A program made the translations under genes and the position numbers. Of a stretch of DNA of 64,000 nt, positions 4,773-64,000 are shown one piece after another. Each line of letters opens with the position of its first letter. Within the stretch, counting starts at the first letter, position 1. The notes beneath the pieces were generated by a model that was not told the DNA's origin, did no database searches, and worked only from the letters and a program-made list of their open reading frames with translations. This DNA is from Lachnospiraceae bacterium. GTDB taxonomy: Bacteria; Bacillota; Clostridia; Lachnospirales; Lachnospiraceae. The stretch is from the NCBI GenBank assembly GCA_017450485.1, contig JAFSTN010000001.1:54685-118684 (forward strand). The letters run 5' to 3'.

Positions 4773-5885
4773 TTACATAACCACCTGATTTTTACCATGG
4801 TTTTTACCATAGTATAGTTTCTCATCGGCTTCATCGATGATGGTACGCAGAGGCATGAAATCCTTATACTCCGCAATACCGAATGTAGCAGTCACACCGA
4901 AAGTGCCCTCATACTTGTTCTTCAGCACAGTCTCCTCGAGCTTACGACGGATCCTGTCCGCTACGAAATATGTTTCCTGCTTATCTCCGTGGATCAGGAG
5001 CAGGAACTCCTCTCCGCCCCATCTGCAGGTGTAATCGCCGCCTCTGACTTCCTGTGTGAGCAGATCGGCCAGAGTGATCAGGACCTTGTCTCCGATATCA
5101 TGCCCGTATGTGTCGTTGATATGCTTGAAATCATCGATATCCAGCATGACGAGACAGCATTTCCGAGGAGTATCGTTACTCAGTTCCAGCTCATCACTCA
5201 TAAATCTGGTCATGCTCCTGCGGTTCAGAAGTCTGGTCAAAGGATCATAGCTGGCCTCTATCCCGAGCTTCACATTTTCTTTCTCCAAAAGCTGCTCCAT
5301 ATATTTCGTTTCAAGAGCAAACAGTGCCGAGAAAGCAAGCTGCATGAAAAAGGCAATGACCATATTGAAGAACCTCAATCCCTCCCTGGCAACGGGACTT
5401 TCGATCCAGTAATAATACGGTTTTACATGAGGCTGTATGAGGCTGGCCACAAAGTAAACCACAATGACAAAAGCCGACAGACAGATCGCATAAGCTATAT
5501 GTTTGCTCCTGTTGGCCAGGGAATTGGCCAGATAAAACGCAGCCGGTATAAGCGCGATCGTGTACAGCATAAAGCCCCACTCCCATCCGAGGAGCAGAGA
5601 TGCCAGAGTCGAGTGGATCTCAACCTCAAGGAAGAAAAGGACCATAATGAGCCTGAACTTCTTACGGTTCGTAAGCATGATCCCCATAAAGCAATACAGG
5701 TACACAACAAATACATTGTAATAACACAATATATTTGCCCCGATACTCCCCATCACGACACAGAATATCAGATGGATGAATGCGGTAGACAGGCATATGA
5801 TGCGATACTTACTGGAATTATCAATAAGCTGTTTGCCTGACAGAACCTGTCTTATGGTATGAAAGATCAGTTCAAAGCTCTTCAC
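4773..5885 (-). CDS. Membrane-anchored GGDEF diguanylate cyclase
   Basis: A 370-residue protein with five to six membrane segments in residues 27–190, a short coiled linker and a C-terminal GGDEF domain. The active-site motif is RWGGEEF (G290–F294). LDIDDFKHINDTYGHDIGD supplies metal and substrate ligands. An RxxD product-inhibition site (R281–D284) sits five residues before the motif, so the enzyme should make c-di-GMP and be feedback-inhibited. The start is GTG with AAGGA seven bases upstream. The neighbours are an HD-GYP phosphodiesterase and a second cyclase in the same operon. The signal sensed by the membrane part is unknown. Confidence 0.93.
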   Translation of the reverse strand: MKSFELIFHTIRQVLSGKQLIDNSSKYRIICLSTAFIHLIFCVVMGSIGANILCYYNVFVVYLYCFMGIMLTNRKKFRLIMVLFFLEVEIHSTLASLLLGWEWGFMLYTIALIPAAFYLANSLANRSKHIAYAICLSAFVIVVYFVASLIQPHVKPYYYWIESPVAREGLRFFNMVIAFFMQLAFSALFALETKYMEQLLEKENVKLGIEASYDPLTRLLNRRSMTRFMSDELELSNDTPRKCCLVMLDIDDFKHINDTYGHDIGDKVLITLADLLTQEVRGGDYTCRWGGEEFLLLIHGDKQETYFVADRIRRKLEETVLKNKYEGTFGVTATFGIAEYKDFMPLRTIIDEADEKLYYGKNHGKNQVVM

Positions 5886-6538: not shown

Positions 6539-8671
6539 TTACTCATCCTTTCTATATTCGTTAAGAACTTCTCTGACCTCATCCTCGGCATTCAGGAATG
6601 CCCGAGCCACATATGGATCAAAGTGCGTTCCTATTCCCTCTTCTATGATGCTGAAAGCTTTCTCGGGCGGCATGCCTTCCTTATAGCTTCGCTTGGACAC
6701 CAGTGCGTCAAATACGTCGGCAACAGCCATGATTCGCGCGGACAATGGTATCTCCTCACCCGAAATGCCATGAGGATACCCCCTGCCGTTCCACTTCTCG
6801 TGATGGAACTCGGCTAATTCCTTGGCTGTATCCAGATAACCGGCTTCGGGAACAGTTTCAATAACTCGCTGCACGATCTCACTGCCTGCGGTGGTATGTG
6901 ACTTCATCTGATCGAACTCATCATCGGTCAGCTTGCCCGGCTTGTTGAGTATGGAGTCGGATACGCTGATCTTGCCGATGTCATGCAGAGGAGCCGACTT
7001 GACCACATCACTCATGAACTCGGGGGTAAGCACATCAGTATATATGCCCTCTTTGCACAGTTCGTTCATGATGATACGGGTATAAATGGCGGTCTTGCGT
7101 ACATGATCGCCCGTATTCTTGTCTCTGCTCTCAACCATATCAGCCAGAACAAGGATCAGGCTGTCCTGCATGCGGCGTATCGTGGCATCCTTGTCATTCA
7201 GCTCATTGACATAGGTCACACTGTCCTCGGTCATCTTGGAAAATGCGCGGTACAGATTCTCGATCTCATCACCCGTACTGATCTGCAGTTCCTTGATATG
7301 TTCCACACTGTTCTCGGACATATCCTCAATGTGATATGCAAAATCGGTGGCAGCCATGGCCATCGTATTTACCGGGAATATCAGATTATACCTGATAACC
7401 CACAGACCGACCGCGAGAACCAGTATGAAAATACCGACGAACAGTGAAATCTGCTTCGCAAGGAATGAATAGCCGTTGAGTCTGAGCTGATCCATCGAGA
7501 TATCCACGCAGGCATATGCCTGACATACTCCGTCCTGATCATATATGGGCTGGTATACGGTCAGCAGCCAGCCGAAAGTATCATCCGTGATGATCGGGTC
7601 GATCTCCTTGCCTGCCAGAAGAGCATCTATATACGGAGCAAAAGAATCGTCAAACGGAATGATGTCACCGGCCAATGCTCCCTGAACTTCGGGGGTATCC
7701 AGGTCAAATACAACCTGACAGCCCTCGGGAACGATCCGATAAACATAAATATACTCTATATCTTTGGAACTGCTGCGAAGGGCATAGAGACTGTTCTCTG
7801 TCCTGACATAACCTATCGCGGCATAACCCTTGTCGATGTAATCATCGATACGGAAGGGCTCCACGACTCCGGCAGCCGTTGCAGCCACACCTCTGGCCAG
7901 AGCGATGTGATTATCGATGCTGTCGTCCATATAAAGCTTATATCCGATGCCTGTCGAAGCTATGGCCACAATCAAAAGTGCTCCGGTAATAAGCCCCAGC
8001 ATTTTGGTACGTATCGAGGCGGAACGGTTATCACTTACACCGGCCGCTCTCTCATCGTGAACACTCAGCGGCTTCTGTTGCCAGCCTGTCAGCTGGAAGA
8101 TGTCCTTGATCCTGGCGGGCAACAGATAATAGATCGGCAGGATCACGATCATGTTCACGGTCTTATCTGCCAGATCCAGCAGAAAATCACCTGCAAACTG
8201 CGCCTGGAAAAGAGAAAACTTCCCGCTCTCATACAGGGATTTCACAAATCCTATGCTGATGCCTTCAGCGGCAAACCCATAGAGAAACCAGGTCAGGACC
8301 GCTCCCAGTCCTCCACCGATAAGAGCACACAGTAATGTAAGAGAAATGACACCCCATATCTTCTTCAGCCAACCGCGTTCTGCATAAAAAGCAGTCACAA
8401 CAGCCATGATCACGCTGAGACATTCATAATAGATCGCACTCTGATCCGCATATGCCTTGATATAGTTACTCACAAAACCAACGACGATGCCCGGCAGATA
8501 TCCGCCAATGGCTGCCACCAGAAGCGTGCCTATCGTATCCAGATACATGGGAAGTCGTAATTCGCTTGCGACAGCCGCACCCGTCAGATTCAGTATCCAA
8601 CCGATCAGGCAGAGCAGAACGACCCATTTGAAATTCTCTCTTTTTTTGACCTTGAGGTTCACGTCATCCAT
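6539..8671 (-). CDS. ECF-S-like membrane domain fused to Cache–HAMP–HD-GYP phosphodiesterase
   Basis: A 710-residue protein. Residues 10–195 form a multi-helix membrane domain resembling ECF-transporter substrate-binding (S) components (PMYLDTIGTLLVAAIGGYLPG). A second membrane segment (about 222–246), an extracellular Cache-like domain (about 247–400), another membrane helix, a HAMP-like linker, and an HD-GYP domain from about 500 follow. Catalytic features include H563-D564 in PLHDIGK and HHEKWNGRGYP (623–633). The domain should hydrolyse c-di-GMP in response to an external ligand. No Shine–Dalgarno is visible before the ATG; a TATAAT lies eight bases upstream instead. Confidence 0.88.
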   Translation of the reverse strand: MDDVNLKVKKRENFKWVVLLCLIGWILNLTGAAVASELRLPMYLDTIGTLLVAAIGGYLPGIVVGFVSNYIKAYADQSAIYYECLSVIMAVVTAFYAERGWLKKIWGVISLTLLCALIGGGLGAVLTWFLYGFAAEGISIGFVKSLYESGKFSLFQAQFAGDFLLDLADKTVNMIVILPIYYLLPARIKDIFQLTGWQQKPLSVHDERAAGVSDNRSASIRTKMLGLITGALLIVAIASTGIGYKLYMDDSIDNHIALARGVAATAAGVVEPFRIDDYIDKGYAAIGYVRTENSLYALRSSSKDIEYIYVYRIVPEGCQVVFDLDTPEVQGALAGDIIPFDDSFAPYIDALLAGKEIDPIITDDTFGWLLTVYQPIYDQDGVCQAYACVDISMDQLRLNGYSFLAKQISLFVGIFILVLAVGLWVIRYNLIFPVNTMAMAATDFAYHIEDMSENSVEHIKELQISTGDEIENLYRAFSKMTEDSVTYVNELNDKDATIRRMQDSLILVLADMVESRDKNTGDHVRKTAIYTRIIMNELCKEGIYTDVLTPEFMSDVVKSAPLHDIGKISVSDSILNKPGKLTDDEFDQMKSHTTAGSEIVQRVIETVPEAGYLDTAKELAEFHHEKWNGRGYPHGISGEEIPLSARIMAVADVFDALVSKRSYKEGMPPEKAFSIIEEGIGTHFDPYVARAFLNAEDEVREVLNEYRKDE

Positions 8672-8685
8672 ATCAATATATTATA

Positions 8686-10050
8686 TCACTTTCTGTGTCT
8701 TCGGTACAGTTCGGCGACTCCTGCCAAAAGCGAGGAATAGAACACAGCAAACCCGTATACCATATATCTGGAGATACACATGATGATCATTGCGGTACCG
8801 AAAGCATTTCCAAGTATAATAAGCAGGCTCAGAGCGATCATCATCGCTCCCGGACTGCGCTTATCCTCCCTGAACAGGATGATCATAAGGCATACGGCAG
8901 TCACAAACAGAACCGCGGCGATCGCATAGCCGGCAGCCGTGCAAACCGACACGCTCCTGACCAGACCGCGTAATCCCATGATCAGCATATCCGGGATCCA
9001 TCTGCCTATACATGCCGGAAAAAGCACCGGGATCATCTGAGAACAATACTCTTCAGCTATGATGTTGTAGTCTATATAATCATGTATCCCCGTAGCTTCC
9101 ACAACATCACGCAATCCGTATTCTATGACATCAAACTTGACGCGGTCATGCATGTCCTCAAGGTACACGGCTCTGTCCGCAGCGGATTCTCCGGCATACA
9201 GATAAGAATAACCGTATGCATCCATCTGATCATACAGTACGTAAAATATCCCTTTCAGTTCATCATCCTCTATCCTCTCACCGGCAGCCCGGTCCGTAGC
9301 ATAGAAGATATTCGCCAAAGCGGTCTGCTTCGTGAATTCATTGCCCACATATCGATCATTGAACCTGAGATTATAGCTTTTGGTGGCCACATCTCTGACC
9401 GTAAAGGAACCAATAAAAGCAACTATGATCAGAAGGATACCGAAAAGCTTCTTACCGGGTACATATACAGCCAATGCAACTATCAGCCAGGCAACAAGTA
9501 ATATGATCAGATTGCTCCTGGTCAGTGATATAATGACGGCCAGCAGCAATGAAGATATCGCATCGCCCACTCTGCGTCTGTTAAGCATCCTGTGAAGCTC
9601 AATAAAAAAGCCGAGGAAAAGTGGCATCGCTATCGACTCGCTCATGATACCCACCGACAGATTTACATGCATGGTCGAAACGAAAGGTGTGACCATATAT
9701 GGCAAAAGAACAAAAAAACAAACCATAGACGATCCGACGGTTTTCAGCCCTGCCACATCGGAGACATACTCAACGAAACGATATGAGGCAAATATCACTA
9801 TGATCGTCTGGATCACTCCCGCCGCCGTCATCCAGCGTTCGCCGAACAGGCTTCTGATAAGATACAGAAACACGGGATATACAGGCTCTCTGCGTACATG
9901 CATGGTGATATACTGATCGGAATCGTTATATAGGCCCACACCGAACCTGATGAGTATACCGGTGAAGAACACAACCAAGACTGCGAATATGATTATACGG
10001 GAAACGGCTTTTCTGCCTGCCGGATCCTTCATTCTGATCCTGTTATTCAT
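8686..10050 (-). CDS. Polytopic membrane protein, GT-C glycosyltransferase-like
   Basis: About 454 residues with roughly ten membrane helices. An early extracellular loop has NDSDQYITMHVRREPVYP, reminiscent of the DxD/acidic first loop of GT-C enzymes that use lipid-linked sugar donors. No sharper family match is recognised. The in-frame GTG at 10062 lacks a properly spaced ribosome site; the ATG at 10050 has AGAGGTG about eleven bases upstream and is preferred. It sits between the galactanase fusion and the HD-GYP gene, with a GT4 gene further upstream. A role in building a surface glycan or glycolipid is inferred. Confidence 0.6.
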   Translation of the reverse strand: MNNRIRMKDPAGRKAVSRIIIFAVLVVFFTGILIRFGVGLYNDSDQYITMHVRREPVYPVFLYLIRSLFGERWMTAAGVIQTIIVIFASYRFVEYVSDVAGLKTVGSSMVCFFVLLPYMVTPFVSTMHVNLSVGIMSESIAMPLFLGFFIELHRMLNRRRVGDAISSLLLAVIISLTRSNLIILLVAWLIVALAVYVPGKKLFGILLIIVAFIGSFTVRDVATKSYNLRFNDRYVGNEFTKQTALANIFYATDRAAGERIEDDELKGIFYVLYDQMDAYGYSYLYAGESAADRAVYLEDMHDRVKFDVIEYGLRDVVEATGIHDYIDYNIIAEEYCSQMIPVLFPACIGRWIPDMLIMGLRGLVRSVSVCTAAGYAIAAVLFVTAVCLMIILFREDKRSPGAMMIALSLLIILGNAFGTAMIIMCISRYMVYGFAVFYSSLLAGVAELYRRHRK

Positions 10051-10058
10051 CCGCTCGC

Positions 10059-13000
10059 TCACACCTCTGTCAGTCTGATGTCTGCTATACGGCCGAATAC
10101 CGGCGGTGAAGAAATACGTACACCTACGCTGACACTTTCGGCATCAAGCTTGATGGGCTCCATGCTGTAGGTTTCAAATCTTAAGTCCGACGGATAGATC
10201 GGCTTCTCATACAACTTTTCACCGTTGCATGTAATGACTTTCAGGAACAGACGTATATCAACACCGGTGGTGTTGGTACCACGATAGCTTACCGACAGAC
10301 AGTAGACCCCCTTCTTCGATATACGCAGTTCTCTGCACAGTTCGAGTGTGAAGTTCGTCTGAGATGTCAGATATACTTCACGGTTCTCGCAGACCACGGT
10401 GACGGAATCCGGATTTCTGGTCAGCCACCATCCGTTCAATTCATTGGAGAAATCACCGTTCGGTATAAGATTAGTACCAGCCGGAAGGATCCGGGCATCA
10501 TCATACTCATACATTTTCTCTATATATGAATCAATATCACCGATTGGCGGATTCAGCGGGTCAAACTCCCTGAAAGCCGCAAACGACGAAAGAGCTTCAT
10601 GAGAAGTATTGAGCATCCCCATATTCTCATCCCAGCTGCCGAAATCCATATCCGTAATGCACAAAGGTTCCCAGTAGTATACGCCAGTATCACGGCCATC
10701 CGAAACCTCCGCTGCTATCTGCATCACCAGCTCCAATGACTTCTTCTGCTCTTCTATTCCGGCCTGAAGACCGGCAGAATGCATCATATCCTCCGACACA
10801 TGTTCACCCTCGCAGTGTCTCCAGGGGTGCGCCGTCTCTACTACATACACGGGCAGATCGTAACGGTCTATCAGCTGCGTCATGGAGTCCTTCAGATCCG
10901 CAAAGGTGCCGTGCCAGAATGAATAGAAACTGATACCGATCGCATCTATCCGATCCATTCCGGCCGCAAACATGGCGTCAAACCAGTCTCTGAGATAATA
11001 GAATCTTCCGCCCTGATCGAGGTGGATCATGATCTTTATGTCCACTGACAGATCCCTGACCGCTTCTATCCCGGCATTTACCAGTTTAGCCAAAGACTGA
11101 TAATCGGGAACGGCTCCATCCGGGAACAGCATTCCGCTCCTGATCTCATTACCTATCTGTACCATATCCGGCAGCGCATCCACCTTGGATAATTCCACGA
11201 GAACATGTGTCGTATAATCATATACCGCCCTAACCAGCTCATCAAAAGTCAGTTTCTTCCAGGATTCCGGTTTACGTTGCTGTCCGGGATCCGCCCAGTA
11301 GTCGGAATAATGAAAATCAAGGACAAAGCTCATGCCTGCGGACTTGATACGTTCGGCCATTTCGAGCGTATGCTTCAGGTCACAATATCCTCCGGATTCG
11401 GGAACATTTCCGGGCTCATTCCATATCCTGAGCCTGACGGAATTAACCCCGTTCTCAGCCAGCAGTTCCATGGGATCCTTTTCATTTCCTTCGGAATCAT
11501 AGAACCTGCAGCCCCTGTCTTCACGTTCAGGCAGATTGGATATATCCACACCTTTCAGGAAGTGTTTTCCGTAATCATCCGGGTCCGGGCTCAGATCGGG
11601 CCGTGGTATCTGCCCTGCCGAGAACATTCTCGACAGCAGTGAACCCTTTCTCTCTTTTTTTACTTCATACATATGCTGATCGGCCATGACCAGGTACTCA
11701 TCAAGTGTACGGTCGCTCCCGGGATCGGTCATGATATAACCGCAGCTCATCTCTATCCGTCTTGCTTCCAGCCGCCTGTCCACCTTGTATATGAAGCGCT
11801 CAACCTTTTCTTTGTACGCATAAGGCATAAATACAACGAATTCATCGCCGCCGAACCTATACGCAAAGGAATCCTTCGGCTTGGCCTGCTTAATGGTATT
11901 AGCTATCATGATCAGCACTCTGTCACCGAAATCATGTCCGTACGTGTCATTGATCCTCTTGAAGTAATCCACATCAAAGAAAACCATCGCACATGTAACT
12001 CCCTCGCTCTTATACCTACCGAATCTGGGAGCGATCATCTCATTGTAGGTGATACGGTTAAACAGTCCCGTCAGAACATCCTTGTTATACAGATTCCTCA
12101 TCTCCTCGGCGGCATTAGCCAGCTGAGTCTGTCTGTACAGGTTCTGAAGACGCTCTATAAAAGTGTTATGGACATCATAAAAGAACGGATTATTATACAG
12201 AAACACGGGTTCGAGCAACGTCGTGGCACCGACTGTCTCGTCCCTGAAATGGATCGGGAAAAACACGTAGCTGCGTGATCTCTTTGCAGATCTCAGATAA
12301 TCAAGCAAATCATCATAATCCCTGACGGAATATATCTTCTCCCCATTATCGCATCCGTATACGACCTTCATACGGTTTCTGTCGATACCCTGAACCGACA
12401 GTCTGCCGTCCGGTCTGGCTTCAAGAAGAGTCTTGTCGACCCATATGAACATGCCGGTGCAGTCCAGAGTGCTCACGTAATCGGCGAAGCTTTCAAACAG
12501 TCCGTCCATGTTTTTACATTCGGCAAATCTGTTCTCAAGCTCCAGAATGTTTTCTTCATGTCTGTCACGCTCTACACCCCAGTCTATCTGCCACTTGGCG
12601 AACAGCCTGTAGTCCACATCTCCTGTGTTGCCGCATCCGCAGCTCTCCGCAGGCACGATCTTGCTGCTTACGTATGTATACTGATCCACCTGCTCTCCGT
12701 CCATGAGCCTCAGCAGGATGTCCAGTGCTCTGCTTCCGAGAATACCGCGGTTATGATTGACCGTAGCTATCTGAGGCCTGTAATACGCCGCCTTATCGAG
12801 ATTATCAAAGCCCGTGACCCTGAAATCGTCGGGGATCTTCAGTTCGCGGCGCTCGGCTTCGGCGCACATACCGGCAGCTATATTATCATTGGCACAGATG
12901 AACGCATCAGGCAGATCTTTGCCGGATGCAAGCCATTCGCTCAGGTAGCGGACTCCGGTGTCATAGTCATAGTCACCGAACATATAGTTTTCTTCGGTCA

Positions 13001-13490
13001 AAGGCAGTCCGTAGTCCCTGTGTGCCTCACAGAAAGCCTCGAAGCGTTGCCTGTTCTCATAATTGTTCTCGGGTCCTCCCGCATACACCATCCGTCTGCA
13101 TCCGTGATGATGATACATATGATCGATCATCGCCCTGATCAGACCTTTGTTGTCATTTCCGACATAATGGAAGCCTTCCACAAAATACGATATGCTGACA
13201 ACAGGTGCAGACTGGCCTTTCAGCTTACTTACCACCGAATCGATCACAGCAGGGTCCGTGGTATTGGTGCAGTCAAATATGAAGCCGTCATACGAATCGT
13301 AATCAGGCAGTTCATACAGTCCGTATTCACCCCGGTTATATTTCGCATCATGGCTCAGATTGCCGTTTGTATTGAAAGTATACAGACATATATCGAGACC
13401 GAGTTCCTTGGCACGGTTGATGATCCCGTCAACCCATGCATAGGTTATATATCGTCTCCATCCGTCTGTTATCAGTGCTATCTTCTTCAT
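10059..13490 (-). CDS. LacI-type sugar-binding / GGDEF / GH53 endo-galactanase fusion protein
   Basis: About 1143 residues with no signal peptide or membrane segment. Residues 1–285 are a periplasmic-binding-protein type 1 (LacI/XylR-like) sensor lacking the HTH. A CGCG turn and a GAF-like linker follow (about 290–465). The GGDEF domain spans about 465–615 with RFGGDEF (547–551). The upstream inhibitory site is KPKD instead of RxxD. GH53 arabinogalactan endo-beta-1,4-galactanase spans about 640–985, with acid/base Glu782 (QIGNEI) and nucleophile Glu885 (YVVETAHPW). A beta-sandwich tail (LIPNGDFS onward) resembles CBM4/CBM61-type modules. ATG 13490 has GAGGA seven bases upstream and overlaps the GH13 stop as TGATG. 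It probably senses a sugar, makes c-di-GMP and cleaves imported galacto-oligosaccharides; coupling is inferred. Confidence 0.92.
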   Translation of the reverse strand: MKKIALITDGWRRYITYAWVDGIINRAKELGLDICLYTFNTNGNLSHDAKYNRGEYGLYELPDYDSYDGFIFDCTNTTDPAVIDSVVSKLKGQSAPVVSISYFVEGFHYVGNDNKGLIRAMIDHMYHHHGCRRMVYAGGPENNYENRQRFEAFCEAHRDYGLPLTEENYMFGDYDYDTGVRYLSEWLASGKDLPDAFICANDNIAAGMCAEAERRELKIPDDFRVTGFDNLDKAAYYRPQIATVNHNRGILGSRALDILLRLMDGEQVDQYTYVSSKIVPAESCGCGNTGDVDYRLFAKWQIDWGVERDRHEENILELENRFAECKNMDGLFESFADYVSTLDCTGMFIWVDKTLLEARPDGRLSVQGIDRNRMKVVYGCDNGEKIYSVRDYDDLLDYLRSAKRSRSYVFFPIHFRDETVGATTLLEPVFLYNNPFFYDVHNTFIERLQNLYRQTQLANAAEEMRNLYNKDVLTGLFNRITYNEMIAPRFGRYKSEGVTCAMVFFDVDYFKRINDTYGHDFGDRVLIMIANTIKQAKPKDSFAYRFGGDEFVVFMPYAYKEKVERFIYKVDRRLEARRIEMSCGYIMTDPGSDRTLDEYLVMADQHMYEVKKERKGSLLSRMFSAGQIPRPDLSPDPDDYGKHFLKGVDISNLPEREDRGCRFYDSEGNEKDPMELLAENGVNSVRLRIWNEPGNVPESGGYCDLKHTLEMAERIKSAGMSFVLDFHYSDYWADPGQQRKPESWKKLTFDELVRAVYDYTTHVLVELSKVDALPDMVQIGNEIRSGMLFPDGAVPDYQSLAKLVNAGIEAVRDLSVDIKIMIHLDQGGRFYYLRDWFDAMFAAGMDRIDAIGISFYSFWHGTFADLKDSMTQLIDRYDLPVYVVETAHPWRHCEGEHVSEDMMHSAGLQAGIEEQKKSLELVMQIAAEVSDGRDTGVYYWEPLCITDMDFGSWDENMGMLNTSHEALSSFAAFREFDPLNPPIGDIDSYIEKMYEYDDARILPAGTNLIPNGDFSNELNGWWLTRNPDSVTVVCENREVYLTSQTNFTLELCRELRISKKGVYCLSVSYRGTNTTGVDIRLFLKVITCNGEKLYEKPIYPSDLRFETYSMEPIKLDAESVSVGVRISSPPVFGRIADIRLTEV

Positions 13491-15160
13491 CACGATATCC
13501 TCAAGACCAAAGCTTCATAAGGGTAAGCGACAAAAGCGGGCCTGTTCAGTTCGTATTCCGTCCCCTGCTCTCTTTCGTGCGGATAATTGGTCAGCTGCAG
13601 TCTGACAGTTGTGCCTCTGTATTGCTTGGGTATGATACATGGCATCTTTTCTCTGCAAAAAGAGCATATGATCAGATATTCCTCGCCATCCAGTCTTCTG
13701 GAGTAGATATAGAAATTCGGATCATTGGCCCTGAACTCCCTGTATGTTCCGAAGAGCAGAGCCGCGCTTGATTTGCGAAGTTTCACACATGCCCGGTAGA
13801 AGTTGAGTATACTGTCGTCCTCTGTCTCCTGTGCGCTTACATTTATCTGCTTATAGTTCGGATTGACGCCGAACCAGGGTTCAACATCGGAGAACCCCGC
13901 GAAATCACTGTCATCCCATTGCATGGGGGTACGTGAGGAATCACGGCTTGACAGGTGTATACGGTGAAGTCTGGACTGTTCATCATCTTTCAGATGGTAC
14001 GAATAATAATTATTCTTCGATGAAACATCCTTATACAGGTCAATGGACATCAGACGGATATTCGTCATGCCTATCTCCTGTCCCTGATAGATAAACGGAG
14101 TTCCTTTCAGAAACAGATATGCCGCTGCCAAAGCTGTACCGCTCTCCCGATGATGTCTTTCGCTCCCGTACCTGCTCAGGACACGCGGATGATCATGATT
14201 CTCCAGATACAGAGTATTCCACGCCTTTCCCTCGAGCGAATACTGCCATTTGGACAGAGCTTTCTTCAACCTGACCAGCTTGAACGGCAGGTGTACATAT
14301 TCGGTAAAAAGGCAGTCCGCTGTCATATGATCAAACGAGAACATCATGTCCAGGGATTTGCTCCTGCCCGTCAGATACTTGAGAGCCGATCCCACGGTCG
14401 TCATCGGGCCTTCGCCGATCTGTACCGCATTATACTCGTTACATACATCACGGAACTCCTTCATATACTCATGTATATGAGGACCGTCCTTGTAGTACTT
14501 CATCTCATCCAGGATCGGTATGATACCTATCCTGTTCGGAAGCCCTTCCTTCTTGGAAATGAAATTTATGACATCTTCACGGAATCCGTCGACGCCCATT
14601 TCCAGCCAGAACCTGAGGATCTTTTTGACTTCTTCTCTGACTGCCGGATTGTCCATATTCAGATCGGGCTGCTTCCTTGCAAACAGATGCAGGTAATATT
14701 GCCCCCGAGTCTCGTCGTATTCCCAGGCTTTGCCCTCAAGAACCGAGCTCCAGTTATTCGGTTTATCGCGCCAAATATAATAATCGCTGTATGGATTATC
14801 CCGACCTTTCCTGCTCTCACGGAACCACTCGTGCTCGTCTGAAGTGTGATTGATCACAAGGTCCATGATGACCTTCATCCCCAGCTCATGCGCACGGTCA
14901 AGCACACGCTTGAACTGGTCCAGATCACCGTAGTCCGGGTGTATATTGCAGTAGTCGGATATATCATATCCGTAGTCCGCATTCGGCGATGGATAAAGCG
15001 GATTAAACCATATAGCGGTCACTCCCAGAGACCTGACATATTCGAGCTTATCATAGACGCCGTAGAGATCCCCTATGCCGTCTCCGTTGCCGTCGCAGAA
15101 GCTCCGCACCCAAATCTGATAGAATACCGCTGTTTTATACCAATCTCTTGAATCACTCAT
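13490..15160 (-). CDS. Alpha-glucosidase, GH13 subfamily 31 (oligo-1,6-glucosidase-like)
   Basis: A 556-residue intracellular GH13 enzyme starting WYKTAVFYQIWVRSFCDGNG. The nucleophile is Asp196 (GFREDVINF), the acid/base Glu250 (QIGEG) and the transition-state stabiliser Asp323 (ENHDHPR). DVINF after the nucleophile region is usual for oligo-1,6-glucosidase and alpha-glucosidase. It should release glucose from alpha-linked oligosaccharides in the cytosol. Dextran glucosidase or sucrose isomerase activities are alternatives. The start overlaps the GT4 gene by 8 bp, and its stop overlaps the next start, so translation is probably coupled. Confidence 0.93.
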   Translation of the reverse strand: MSDSRDWYKTAVFYQIWVRSFCDGNGDGIGDLYGVYDKLEYVRSLGVTAIWFNPLYPSPNADYGYDISDYCNIHPDYGDLDQFKRVLDRAHELGMKVIMDLVINHTSDEHEWFRESRKGRDNPYSDYYIWRDKPNNWSSVLEGKAWEYDETRGQYYLHLFARKQPDLNMDNPAVREEVKKILRFWLEMGVDGFREDVINFISKKEGLPNRIGIIPILDEMKYYKDGPHIHEYMKEFRDVCNEYNAVQIGEGPMTTVGSALKYLTGRSKSLDMMFSFDHMTADCLFTEYVHLPFKLVRLKKALSKWQYSLEGKAWNTLYLENHDHPRVLSRYGSERHHRESGTALAAAYLFLKGTPFIYQGQEIGMTNIRLMSIDLYKDVSSKNNYYSYHLKDDEQSRLHRIHLSSRDSSRTPMQWDDSDFAGFSDVEPWFGVNPNYKQINVSAQETEDDSILNFYRACVKLRKSSAALLFGTYREFRANDPNFYIYSRRLDGEEYLIICSFCREKMPCIIPKQYRGTTVRLQLTNYPHEREQGTEYELNRPAFVAYPYEALVLRIS

Positions 15161-16481
15161 TGTTCGACATCATGCCTTCATACAGTCTGGTCAGATCATT
15201 GGCTATCGTGTCTCTGATATTACGCGGTACACTGATGATCTTGTTAAGTCCCTCCGCCACATCTGCCGCTGTCTTGATGAGCAGGTCGGATTTATGCATA
15301 CGTCTGCGCCTGATGGTACCGTCAGCTACCAGATCCCTTATGATCTCATATCTGTCATAAGCCCGGCGCACGGAATCTTCCCATGAGATATAGATCTCTT
15401 TCATGGCATTCTCGCCTACCTGACGTACACTCTCCATATCATGGCATACATTCTCCAACAAAGCCGCCATAGCTTCAGGAGTCTCATCTATCAGATATCC
15501 GTTACGTGCATGCGTTATACCTTCCGCAGCACACGAGCCCTCGATGAGCACGCTTGCCAGTCCGCACGCGGCTGCCTCACGTACTACTATCCCGTTGGTA
15601 TCGTATGTGGAAGGAAAAAGAAACAGATCGGCACGTGTGTTGATCGCACGCAGGACCTCCCTGTCCTGTATCGGACCGGTAAAAATCACTTTGGATGAAA
15701 TACCGTATTCTTCAGCCTTTTCTTTGAGACCGTCCGCATCCGCTCCTCCGCCGACAAAAACCATACGGAAGTCCATGCCGCCATCATCAAGCATTTTCAT
15801 GGCATCCATGATCAGCGGAAGTCCCTTGTAATTCATCAGTCGGCCCACGAAAAGGAACATCGGCACATCCGCCGGAAGATCGTACCCCTCTACGGCCGAC
15901 CTGACCTGCTCGGGTGTAGACATGCCACACGGAAAATCGACACCATTCGTCATCACATGATACTCACCTTCGTATCCCAGCGAACGCAGATTAAGCCCCG
16001 CGCCCTCAGATACGACCCACACCTCATCACATGCCGATATGTTACTGATCATCGCACGTATGGTTTCTTTCTTAAGAAACCCTTCTCCGACCGCACGCTC
16101 TATATCCACGTCAAACTTGGTATGATATGTAAAAACAACAGGCGCTCCGGTTTCATACTGCAATATCCTCGCCATCAGAGTAGACGCCGCCGGACAATGT
16201 GTATGTATGATCTCCGGACCGAACTCCGCTATCTCATTGATCTCTTTGACGGATAATGAATAACCGGTCCTGTATCCGTTCACAAGACGTGATGTATCTA
16301 TACTGGGATAATCCAGCACTCTGTACGGATAACCCGTATAGTCAGCATCAGGGTAACGCGGGGTTGCAACGACTACTTCACTGTCCTCCCTCTCCTGGAT
16401 GATACGGGCATAGTTCATGACCGTATTGGCCACGCCATCTATGACAGGCGGAAAAGAATCATTCAACAGGCATACATTCAA
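15153..16481 (-). CDS. Glycosyltransferase family 4 (diacylglycerol glucosyltransferase-like)
   Basis: A 442-residue GT-B enzyme. The N-terminal domain has NDSFPPVIDGVANTVMNYA, the signature of 1,2-diacylglycerol 3-glucosyltransferases and related GT4 enzymes. The C-terminal nucleotide-sugar domain has FVGRLMNYKGLPLI and PSTYDTNGIVVREAAACGL, containing the EX7E-type element. It probably transfers a hexose from a nucleotide-sugar to a membrane lipid or glycan at the inner membrane face. The start appears to be TTG in a TTGA overlap with the preceding gene. A glycolipid product would fit the patatin and GT-C-like neighbours, but this is not shown. Confidence 0.85.
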   Translation of the reverse strand: MNVCLLNDSFPPVIDGVANTVMNYARIIQEREDSEVVVATPRYPDADYTGYPYRVLDYPSIDTSRLVNGYRTGYSLSVKEINEIAEFGPEIIHTHCPAASTLMARILQYETGAPVVFTYHTKFDVDIERAVGEGFLKKETIRAMISNISACDEVWVVSEGAGLNLRSLGYEGEYHVMTNGVDFPCGMSTPEQVRSAVEGYDLPADVPMFLFVGRLMNYKGLPLIMDAMKMLDDGGMDFRMVFVGGGADADGLKEKAEEYGISSKVIFTGPIQDREVLRAINTRADLFLFPSTYDTNGIVVREAAACGLASVLIEGSCAAEGITHARNGYLIDETPEAMAALLENVCHDMESVRQVGENAMKEIYISWEDSVRRAYDRYEIIRDLVADGTIRRRRMHKSDLLIKTAADVAEGLNKIISVPRNIRDTIANDLTRLYEGMMSNNE

Positions 16482-40450: not shown

Positions 40451-40523
40451 TGGAGCATATGGGACTTGAACCCACGACCTCCACACTGCCAGTGTGGCGC
40501 GCTCCCAACTGCGCTAATGCCCC
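40451..40523 (-). tRNA. tRNA-Ala (anticodon GGC)
   Basis: A full 73-nt cloverleaf: acceptor GGGGCAT/ATGCTCC, D-arm GCGCAGTTGGGAGCGC, anticodon stem CCACA/TGTGG with loop CTGGCAG (anticodon GGC, reading GCC/GCU), and T-arm GTGGG–TTCAAGT–CCCAT. The discriminator is A and CCA is not encoded. It stands alone, divergent from the CE2-like gene, with a weak promoter just upstream. Confidence 0.95.
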
Positions 40524-62614: not shown

Positions 62615-63556
62615 TTAACTGAAGCTTATGACCTGATCCCTGGGAGACGGTTCCTTCGCCGGAACTACCTCCAATGCCTCCAGAACAGGTCCTTCATGAC
62701 CTTCATACTCCGGCAGTGCGGCTTTATCCACCCGTGCCGTGATCGTGATCCAGTCCTTATTCTCAAGTTCGGATGTTTTGTCATACCTGCACAGATATCC
62801 GAGAAAAGACATATCTTCCGCACAGCATGTCATAGCCATCCTGCCCGGCACGAAATAATCGGCTCCTACTCCGTCGGGCTTCATGACCTGAGCGAGATAT
62901 CGTATCTTTTTCCCTAGATATCTGTCAAGATGATCCATGGCATCGATGAAAAAGATACCGAATCCGTAATTATCCAGTTCTATGATATCCGCATTCAGAT
63001 CAAACGGCAGATCCGCTTCAAAAATCTGACTGATCTCGCCCTGAGCATCCTCAAAGACTATGTCCGCCTTGGGATTGACCGCCTTTATATTTCTCTTATA
63101 TGTGGCGAGTTCCTCTCCCAATCCGTCACATCTGTTGAATATGATGAGTTCAGACTTCTTGATCATCTCATTTAAGAGTGACTTCATGTTGCTGTAGTAC
63201 ATCGGAAAAGTGGATGCATCTATGGTAGTGATCTGCTGTTCTATGCTCCAGAACCACGGCAGCTTCACATTCTTATAATTCCACATCCCGTTGAACTCCA
63301 CGATCACTCGCGCGGGCTTGTAAGTCTTATCGAGCTCCTGTAGTTTCTCGGGGGTAAAATCGGCCTCGTTCTCAATGACTTCCTTGACGGTGCGTGTGTT
63401 TCTGAGAAGTTCGGGGTCATACTCGATCTCGCCCTCTTCACACAGTATCAGAAGCGTGGTCCCTTTCTCCTGAAAATAAGGCTGTGCCAATGTGTAGTTG
63501 ATAAACTCGGATTTCCCGCTCTCCAGGAAACCCGTGATCATATATACCGGTCTCAC
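62615..63556 (-). CDS. G3E (CobW-like) GTPase
   Basis: A 313-residue P-loop GTPase with Walker A GFLESGKSEFI, VIVEFNGMW in the switch region and guanine motif FNRCD. The canonical CxCC metal site is absent, as in the CobW relatives common in Clostridia. The C-terminal half (GFGIFFIDAMDHLD … AMTCCAEDMSFLGYLC) carries a vicinal CC and a later C that could bind metal. The start GTG overlaps the stop of the upstream His-rich CobW gene (GTGA), so the two should be made together. Confidence 0.85.
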   Translation of the reverse strand: MRPVYMITGFLESGKSEFINYTLAQPYFQEKGTTLLILCEEGEIEYDPELLRNTRTVKEVIENEADFTPEKLQELDKTYKPARVIVEFNGMWNYKNVKLPWFWSIEQQITTIDASTFPMYYSNMKSLLNEMIKKSELIIFNRCDGLGEELATYKRNIKAVNPKADIVFEDAQGEISQIFEADLPFDLNADIIELDNYGFGIFFIDAMDHLDRYLGKKIRYLAQVMKPDGVGADYFVPGRMAMTCCAEDMSFLGYLCRYDKTSELENKDWITITARVDKAALPEYEGHEGPVLEALEVVPAKEPSPRDQVISFS

Positions 63557-64000
63557 TTCTTTATCAGTCCTTCCAGTCCGTGCACATCCAGCTCGGCACC
63601 GATCACACAGAACTTACCCGTGACATCGGGCTCACCGGTACGTACGTTCTTCTCTCCGGGTACGTAATCGAAGTATATCCATCCGCCTTCGGTATCGGGA
63701 ACCATTCCCTTGGCCCTGAGTACGGCGCCATACTTCTCCGAGTCGAGTTCATCAAGGATACGATCGATCTCTTCTGTCGAATATTTGGCCGGAGTCTCAT
63801 ATCCCCAGCTGTCAAATATATCATCCGCATGATGATGGTGATGATGGTCATGTCCGTGATGGTGATGCTCGTGCTCGTCGTCATCATCGTCATCATCGTC
63901 ATCATCGTGGTGGTGGTGATGATGCTCATGCTCGTCGTCATCATCGTCATCATCATCGTGGTGGTGATGATGCTCATGCTCGTCGTCATCGTCGTCATCG
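63553..64000 (-). CDS. CobW-type metallochaperone, C-terminal part with His/Asp repeat (partial)
   Basis: The last 148 codons are present; the gene runs off the right edge. The visible part starts with three blocks of Asp runs, EHEH and His runs, then HDHHHHHH, and ends in a globular domain (ADDIFDSWGYETPAKYSTEEIDRILDEL … GKFCVIGAELDVHGLEGLIKK) typical of CobW C-terminal domains. His/Asp tails in G3E GTPases bind zinc, nickel or cobalt. The N-terminal GTPase domain is not seen, so family assignment rests on the tail, the C-domain and the adjacent G3E gene. Confidence 0.75.
   Translation of the reverse strand, partial: DDDDDDEHEHHHHHDDDDDDDDEHEHHHHHHDDDDDDDDDDEHEHHHHGHDHHHHHHADDIFDSWGYETPAKYSTEEIDRILDELDSEKYGAVLRAKGMVPDTEGGWIYFDYVPGEKNVRTGEPDVTGKFCVIGAELDVHGLEGLIKK
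63828..64000. repeat. GAT/GAC–CAT/CAC codon repeat array (DDDDEHEHHHH)
   Basis: The coding DNA is a low-complexity array of gat, gac, cat, cac and gag codons arranged as three near-copies of a 45–54-base unit (Asp run, EHEH, His run). Codon-internal variation (gat/gac) suggests expansion followed by drift. Confidence 0.85.

Follow-up and report, generated by a model that had tools for sequence, protein, structure and literature searches.

A 64,000-nucleotide (nt) stretch from the genome of a Lachnospiraceae bacterium (assembly GCA_017450485.1, contig JAFSTN010000001.1, positions 54,685 to 118,684; referred to here as the window) carries a gene in which a LacI-type sugar-binding domain, a GGDEF domain and a glycoside hydrolase family 53 (GH53) domain follow one another. 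Window positions 10059–13493 on the minus strand form one uninterrupted open reading frame (ORF) of about 1,143 amino acids (aa). Translation probably begins at the ATG at 13490; this codon lies in a TGATG overlap and has one base in common with the stop codon of the upstream GH13 gene. At its 3' end, the frame runs 4 nt into the following gene. Residue numbers count the GTG at 13493, the start given by the ORF caller, as residue 1. The gene has the following parts:

10059..13493, minus strand: whole gene, LacI-type sensor, GGDEF, GH53 and CBM61-like module (ORF and Pfam)
12642..13490, minus strand: LacI/periplasmic binding protein (PBP)-type sugar-binding domain, residues 2–284, without helix-turn-helix (HTH) (Pfam and alignments)
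12108..12629, minus strand: linker domain, residues 289–462 (AlphaFold2; profile searches gave no family)
11646..12083, minus strand: GGDEF domain, predicted diguanylate cyclase, residues 471–616 (Pfam and alignment)
11838..11852, minus strand: GGDEF motif, residues 548–552; P and S at the inhibitory-site (I-site) positions 539 and 542 (alignments)
11565..11627, minus strand: fast-evolving inter-domain link, residues 623–643 (ratio of non-synonymous to synonymous substitution rates, dN/dS)
10572..11555, minus strand: GH53 domain, predicted endo-beta-1,4-galactanase, residues 647–974 (Pfam and PDB sequence match)
11145..11147, minus strand: E783, candidate catalytic acid/base, in QIGNEI (alignments)
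10836..10838, minus strand: E886, candidate catalytic nucleophile, in VVETAHPW (alignments)
10062..10487, minus strand: CBM61-like (carbohydrate-binding module) beta-sandwich, residues 1003–1144 (profile comparisons)

Domains of the fusion protein

In the Pfam scan, Peripla_BP_3 matched residues 127–284 (E 1.7e-24; 87.2 bits against a cut-off of 26.5), GGDEF matched residues 471–616 far above its cut-off (E 3.3e-30), and GH53 (PF07745) matched residues 647–974 over profile positions 2–340 of 340 (E 5.6e-96). PDB sequence searches found LacI-family regulators within residues 62–288, GGDEF enzymes at about 442–620 and GH53 galactanases at about 637–979. The LacI HTH (PF00356) was not found by the Pfam scan, and the protein lacks the N-terminal HTH of a LacI-family transcription factor. 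Hydropathy analysis (Kyte-Doolittle only, no signal-peptide predictor) revealed no hydrophobic segment over the threshold, which supports a cytosolic location. Thus, the observation that sensor, cyclase and GH53 parts share one ORF was confirmed. An earlier note on this DNA had described an HTH-free LacI-type domain, an intact GGDEF, a GH53 barrel with both catalytic glutamates, a beta-sandwich tail and no signal peptide, and the searches and alignments reported here bore out each of these features.

The sensor domain belongs to the LacI-family ligand-binding domains by its Peripla_BP_3 score and its pocket residues R150, N202 and D230. Together with D203, these residues, the equivalents of LacI R197, N246, D247 and D274, were invariant in an alignment of nine fused proteins, made up of that of the window and eight others 63–91% identical to it. 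One un-fused protein among 34 aligned sensor-cyclase rows has S at position 202. The structural match to the LacI fold was weak (template modelling score TMt of 0.34–0.49) in a full-length AlphaFold2 model of moderate quality, with a predicted local distance difference test score (pLDDT) of 69 and a predicted template modelling score of 0.50. This quality is too poor for reading sensor–GGDEF contacts.

Modeled alone (residues 285–470), the linker reached a mean pLDDT of 84 and lies between two long helices, with the order helix-helix-strand-helix-strand-helix-strand-strand-helix-helix. It had previously been called GAF-like, which was not confirmed. The linker of the window's protein was not matched to GAF in the Pfam profile search; in a set of 12 linkers GAF_2 was matched once (E 0.022), in a wider set by none of 23, and PDB profile searches with the linker returned nothing significant.

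The GGDEF domain is a predicted diguanylate cyclase, judged by its motif and by residues D507, N515, D516, D524 and K612, whose metal and GTP roles are those known from PleD. The GGDEF residues checked were kept in nearly all of the 34 sensor-cyclase rows, with N at position 509 in three and GGDEY in one. In PleD, the I-site R and D lie 9 and 6 residues before GG. At this register, the fusion protein has P539 and S542, not K538 and D541, and PKDS stands where a classical I-site would show RxxD five residues before GGDEF. The stretch KPKD, formerly read as a degenerate inhibitory site, is therefore one residue out of register. Moreover, none of the 34 sensor-cyclase rows examined has the R..D pair. 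The fusion is therefore not unusual in lacking it, and a particular escape from product feedback is unsupported. These residues also bear on the possibility that information flows in reverse, i.e., that the galactanase is controlled by GTP or cyclic di-GMP (c-di-GMP) bound to the GGDEF domain. One chain could in principle be coupled in either direction, but the intact motif with its metal and substrate residues, and the absence of a classical I-site for product binding, make this very improbable.

The GH53 domain is a predicted endo-beta-1,4-galactanase. In the alignment to the Bacillus licheniformis galactanase 1r8l, E783 falls opposite E165 and E886 opposite E263; entry 2gft is, by its structure title, the E263A nucleophile mutant of that enzyme. 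Both glutamates were kept in all 12 fused and all 15 stand-alone GH53 rows. A Foldseek comparison of the full-length AlphaFold2 model matched the GH53 part to 7osk (TMt 0.74), supporting the GH53 fold.

The window's tail alone gave no useful PDB match. A profile built from ten tails (four fused, six from GH53 proteins of about 570 aa) matched the Geobacillus galactanase 9fli (E 4.4e-16) and the Thermotoga maritima CBM61 2xom (E 2.7e-4), besides unrelated weaker matches and one GH31 enzyme at 2.8e-5. It aligned with seven tails of secreted-type GH53 proteins at a probability of 96.6, and those seven tails matched 2xom at 1e-22. Since the profile matches CBM61 while the window's tail alone does not, the tail is a related but divergent CBM61-like module.

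Distribution and evolution of the fusion

Full-length orthologues with 51–91% identity were found in several genera of Lachnospiraceae, including five of the seven genomes of the window's own genus. In 397 family genomes, four full-length fusions were present (G000, G004, G045, G360); those of G362 and G012 are cut by contig ends, and that of G290 is split into two parts, each at a contig end. Among 392 order genomes, one further carrier was found, the single-contig genome G712 (51% identity; locus L123), while 391 class genomes held no carrier except the window's own genome at E ≤ 1e-80. These samples overlap, and scoring in them covered no more than two candidates from each genome. A search of a contig collection gave nine fusion loci, all from Lachnospiraceae and one from strain XBB2008; four of them are contigs of the genus genomes, L028 is the contig of G045, and L034 is partial. 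The domain-order search suggested earlier thus yielded full-length orthologues, and an assembly error joining separate genes was rejected, since full-length copies occur in several assemblies, including the single contig of G712.

In trees of the sensor-cyclase half (35 rows) and of the GH53 half (39 rows), the 12 fused rows formed one clade each time, with a support of 100. Support values are from the Shimodaira–Hasegawa-like approximate likelihood ratio test (SH-aLRT), a quick method, and no bootstrap was used. As the inner branching order of the two half-trees is also nearly identical, one old fusion inherited as a unit is indicated. The fused GH53 clade groups (98) with six signal-less GH53 proteins of about 570 aa, in which no more than about 10 residues precede the domain.

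Selection was estimated from seven sequence pairs, with many comparisons having saturated dS. Where dS was measurable, dN/dS was 0.03–0.12 in the PBP, linker, GGDEF and GH53 domains (0.03–0.10 for GH53 alone). Purifying selection acts on the main domains. The link at residues 623–643 was looser, with 0.10–0.51 in the five of seven pairs with unsaturated dS, and the tail (0.11–0.17) changes more quickly than the enzyme domains. That the GH53 half is decaying was considered and rejected on the basis of its conserved residues and dN/dS. The same data bear on an alternative in which the chief role of GH53-CBM61 is to bind galacto-oligosaccharides as a second input, a receptor whose hydrolysis is incidental. 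A carbohydrate-binding module retained in a protein without an export signal would suit this role; however, the two glutamates kept in every fused row, the low GH53 dN/dS and the faster evolution of the tail render it distinctly unlikely.

Gene neighborhoods of fused and un-fused relatives

In the window, the gene belongs to a tight, operon-like run from 17559 to 3919 that encodes, in order, DUF4230 and DUF202 proteins, a family 4 glycosyltransferase (GT4), a GH13 enzyme, the fusion, a membrane protein, an HD-GYP-type protein, a phosphoribosyltransferase-domain protein, a second GGDEF protein and a patatin. The members described further are:

15153..16481, minus strand: GT4 glycosyltransferase (Pfam)
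13490..15160, minus strand: GH13 enzyme, overlapping the fusion gene (Pfam)
8686..10062, minus strand: polytopic membrane protein, overlapping the fusion gene by 4 nt, with no Pfam or NCBIfam match
6539..8671, minus strand: membrane HD-GYP-type (HD_5) protein, predicted c-di-GMP phosphodiesterase (Pfam and hydropathy)
4773..5885, minus strand: second GGDEF protein of the run, membrane (Pfam and hydropathy)

Since the run also carries the HD-GYP-type gene, predicted c-di-GMP synthesis and breakdown are encoded together. The order GT4–GH13–fusion with the downstream HD-GYP-type gene was kept in all five carriers of the genus (the window, L026, L027, L031 and L033). A second LacI-type cyclase occurs in L027, L031 and L033, and L033 also encodes an EAL protein (11512–13512). 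In the stretches fetched around the fusion in L028, L029, L030, L032, L075, L077 and L123, some of them short, tblastn matched neither the GT4 nor the GH13 of the window. Four PilZ matches were found in the window's own genome, which has two GH53 genes only, the fusion and a secreted-type GH53-CBM61 lipoprotein, as well as an ATP-binding cassette (ABC) operon with an 'FVVNI' protein (81% identical). G012, one of 11 fusion carriers checked, also holds a GH53 of 335 aa.

The neighbors of un-fused relatives of both halves were then compared. All four signal-less GH53 loci inspected (L066, L067, L071, L072; Pfam-checked in part) contain ABC-type sugar transport genes as well as genes for a LacI regulator and for GH42 or GH35, and L129 resembles them by appearance. 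For the sensor half, 28 un-fused sensor-cyclase loci were chosen by score alone, with G061 and G081 as extras and the similarly ranked G362:C100 left out; a contig end hides one side in L068, L080 and L083. A GH53 gene directly adjoins the sensor-cyclase in three of the 28 (G335, G349, G661; confirmed by tblastn). The gene order is ABC permease–'FVVNI' protein–GH42–GH53–sensor-cyclase in G661, 'FVVNI'–GH42–GH53–cyclase in G349, and ABC permease–'FVVNI'–GH53–cyclase–galE in G335, where galE follows by 19 nt. In G201, which belongs to the five closest un-fused relatives, galE lies 574 nt downstream of the cyclase. With 1–3 GH53 genes per genome in 17 genomes checked, about 0.04 adjacencies would be expected by chance in 28 loci (a rough estimate assuming about 2,800 genes per genome). 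The adjacency in these three may be one event, since the G335 and G349 sensors are sisters (99) and G661 belongs to the genus of G349. In G081, fetched because both halves were visible, a sensor-cyclase is followed by a secreted-type GH53 lipoprotein; this pairing is a second event, its cyclase sitting on another branch. The functional tie between sensor-cyclase and galactan breakdown proposed in the earlier note is thus supported by independent gene adjacency in other genera.

Several observations were made alongside. The G081 sensor-cyclase lies in two frames (L078:4553–8716), a split gene or a sequence error, and the lipoprotein after it is a GH53-Big_4 protein with a CBM61-type tail. In L131:6092–9570 and L132:6169–9643 (genomes G524 and G718), un-fused LacI-type cyclases have a GH13 enzyme 1–2 nt downstream. 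ABC permease genes lie on their upstream side, by appearance immediately adjacent in L132 and three genes off in L131. Pairing of sensor and hydrolase may therefore extend beyond galactan. A protein of about 613 aa with the N-terminus N-I/V-IHRPEMVPEY is encoded in 16 of 20 GH53-centered loci (by N-terminus), mostly beside a GH53 of about 375 aa. It occurs at L097:8205–10046 and, in the window's own genome, at L124:9034–10887, both on the minus strand. The L097 copy had no Pfam, NCBIfam or PDB match, and the protein is a candidate unknown carbohydrate enzyme. Elsewhere in the window, the RNA-element search found only a tRNA (40451–40523), promoter-like matches were not above chance level, and an edge open frame rich in D/E/H repeats (63553–63999, minus strand), possibly metal-binding, lies beside a 313-aa ORF beginning VRPVYMITGFLESGKSE.

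A predicted galacto-oligosaccharide-responsive cyclase

We favor, with an even chance of being right, a reading in which the fusion protein senses imported beta-1,4-galacto-oligosaccharides or their products. It is favored because a signal-less galactanase of the oligosaccharide-processing type is joined to a LacI-type sensor cyclase, and because galactan or galactose genes lie beside such cyclases in some relatives. The secreted GH53-CBM61 lipoprotein would cut galactan outside the cell, and beta-1,4-galacto-oligosaccharides would enter. In the cytosol, the LacI-type domain of a one-component cyclase would read these, or galactobiose or galactose made from them, and ligand binding would act on the cyclase via the linker helices and alter c-di-GMP. 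GH53-CBM61, further along the chain, would bind and cut incoming oligosaccharides, so that signal lifetime would follow enzyme flux. We infer the ligand, the activity of both enzymes, the direction of control and the clearance of ligand by the attached enzyme. A further-reaching version, which is possible but on balance doubtful, is a self-terminating enzyme: the chain would sense the sugar, make c-di-GMP and destroy the sugar, giving a pulse timed by galactan flux, and LacI-type cyclases would include intracellular oligosaccharide sensors with hydrolases encoded adjacently or in the same gene.

Several results weigh against the favored reading. The window's fusion stands among GT4, GH13 and HD-GYP genes and not in a galactan operon, and GH42 was not found in its own genome (91% complete). 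Among the 11 carriers checked, G712 and G362 hold a separate GH53 of about 375 aa next to the fusion, and G001 and G003 of the genus are without the fusion. Weak matches of the PBP domain are spread over many LacI-family structures and point to no particular ligand. Of the 28 un-fused loci, 25 had no GH53 in the fetched stretch, nor had the five closest un-fused sensor-cyclases (37–46% identity; L063, L065, L068, L069, L070), which is evidence against a strict link.

This lack of GH53 near the closest relatives also agrees with a fusion for co-expression, in which the sensor reads another sugar, e.g., an alpha-glucoside, given the GH13 neighbor, and GH53 is an intracellular galactanase merely carried on the same chain. 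GH13 adjoins the fusion in the five genus carriers and un-fused sensor-cyclases in G524 and G718. However, GH53 adjacency was found on two other sensor branches, galE accompanies the cyclase in G335 and G201, and the fusion persists in fetched stretches where neither the GH13 nor the GT4 of the window was matched. Co-expression is therefore considered unlikely. If sensing of galacto-oligosaccharides holds true, intracellular breakdown of plant oligosaccharides would be tied directly to c-di-GMP in rumen Lachnospiraceae. LacI-type cyclases, whose signals are listed as unknown, would gain a definite candidate ligand, beta-1,4-galacto-oligosaccharide, and the protein would exemplify a compact natural design, a sensor with a built-in enzyme that clears its cue.

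Sensor-diguanylate cyclases are a known kind of protein, and the GH53-fused form is without precedent among the matches listed from open-licence literature: no published GGDEF-GH53 fusion was among them (one search being represented by its best 20 of 491), and no paper naming strain XBB2008 was found there. A 'GH53' in PMC5457731, an annotation-server label on a HAMP-GGDEF protein, was rejected as a precedent, since the domains described in the relevant excerpt differ. According to passages of a review (PMC8846402), only SBP_bac_3 of the PBP clan has been studied in c-di-GMP networks, and the LacI-type domain is grouped with sensory domains whose function is unknown and which may bind sugars. 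For rumen Butyrivibrio, an excerpt of PMC6912079 predicts many glycoside hydrolases to be intracellular and suggests oligosaccharide import.

Un-fused Lachnospiraceae LacI-type (Peripla_BP_3) GGDEF proteins of about 620–650 aa, with identities of 43–46%, share the N-terminal order sensor–linker–GGDEF with the fusion, but have no GH53 and no CBM domain. The signal-less GH53 proteins of about 570 aa from galactoside loci share its GH53 clade and tail, but stand alone, and one that was scanned (L067) has Big_4 between GH53 and tail, which the fusion lacks. Extracellular GH53-CBM61 galactanases, represented by Geobacillus GanA (9fli) and the T. maritima CBM61 (2xom), have the catalytic domain and a CBM61-type tail in common with it; GanA is secreted by its title, and, unlike the fusion, the matched 9fli and 2xom chains have no signaling domain. 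The PTS-linked EIIA-Glc/PdeS system of Vibrio cholerae, as outlined in a passage of PMC8846402, resembles the proposed function in that sugar status feeds into c-di-GMP. There, two proteins, a phosphorylation state and a phosphodiesterase are involved, whereas the fusion unites a binding domain and a hydrolase in one chain.

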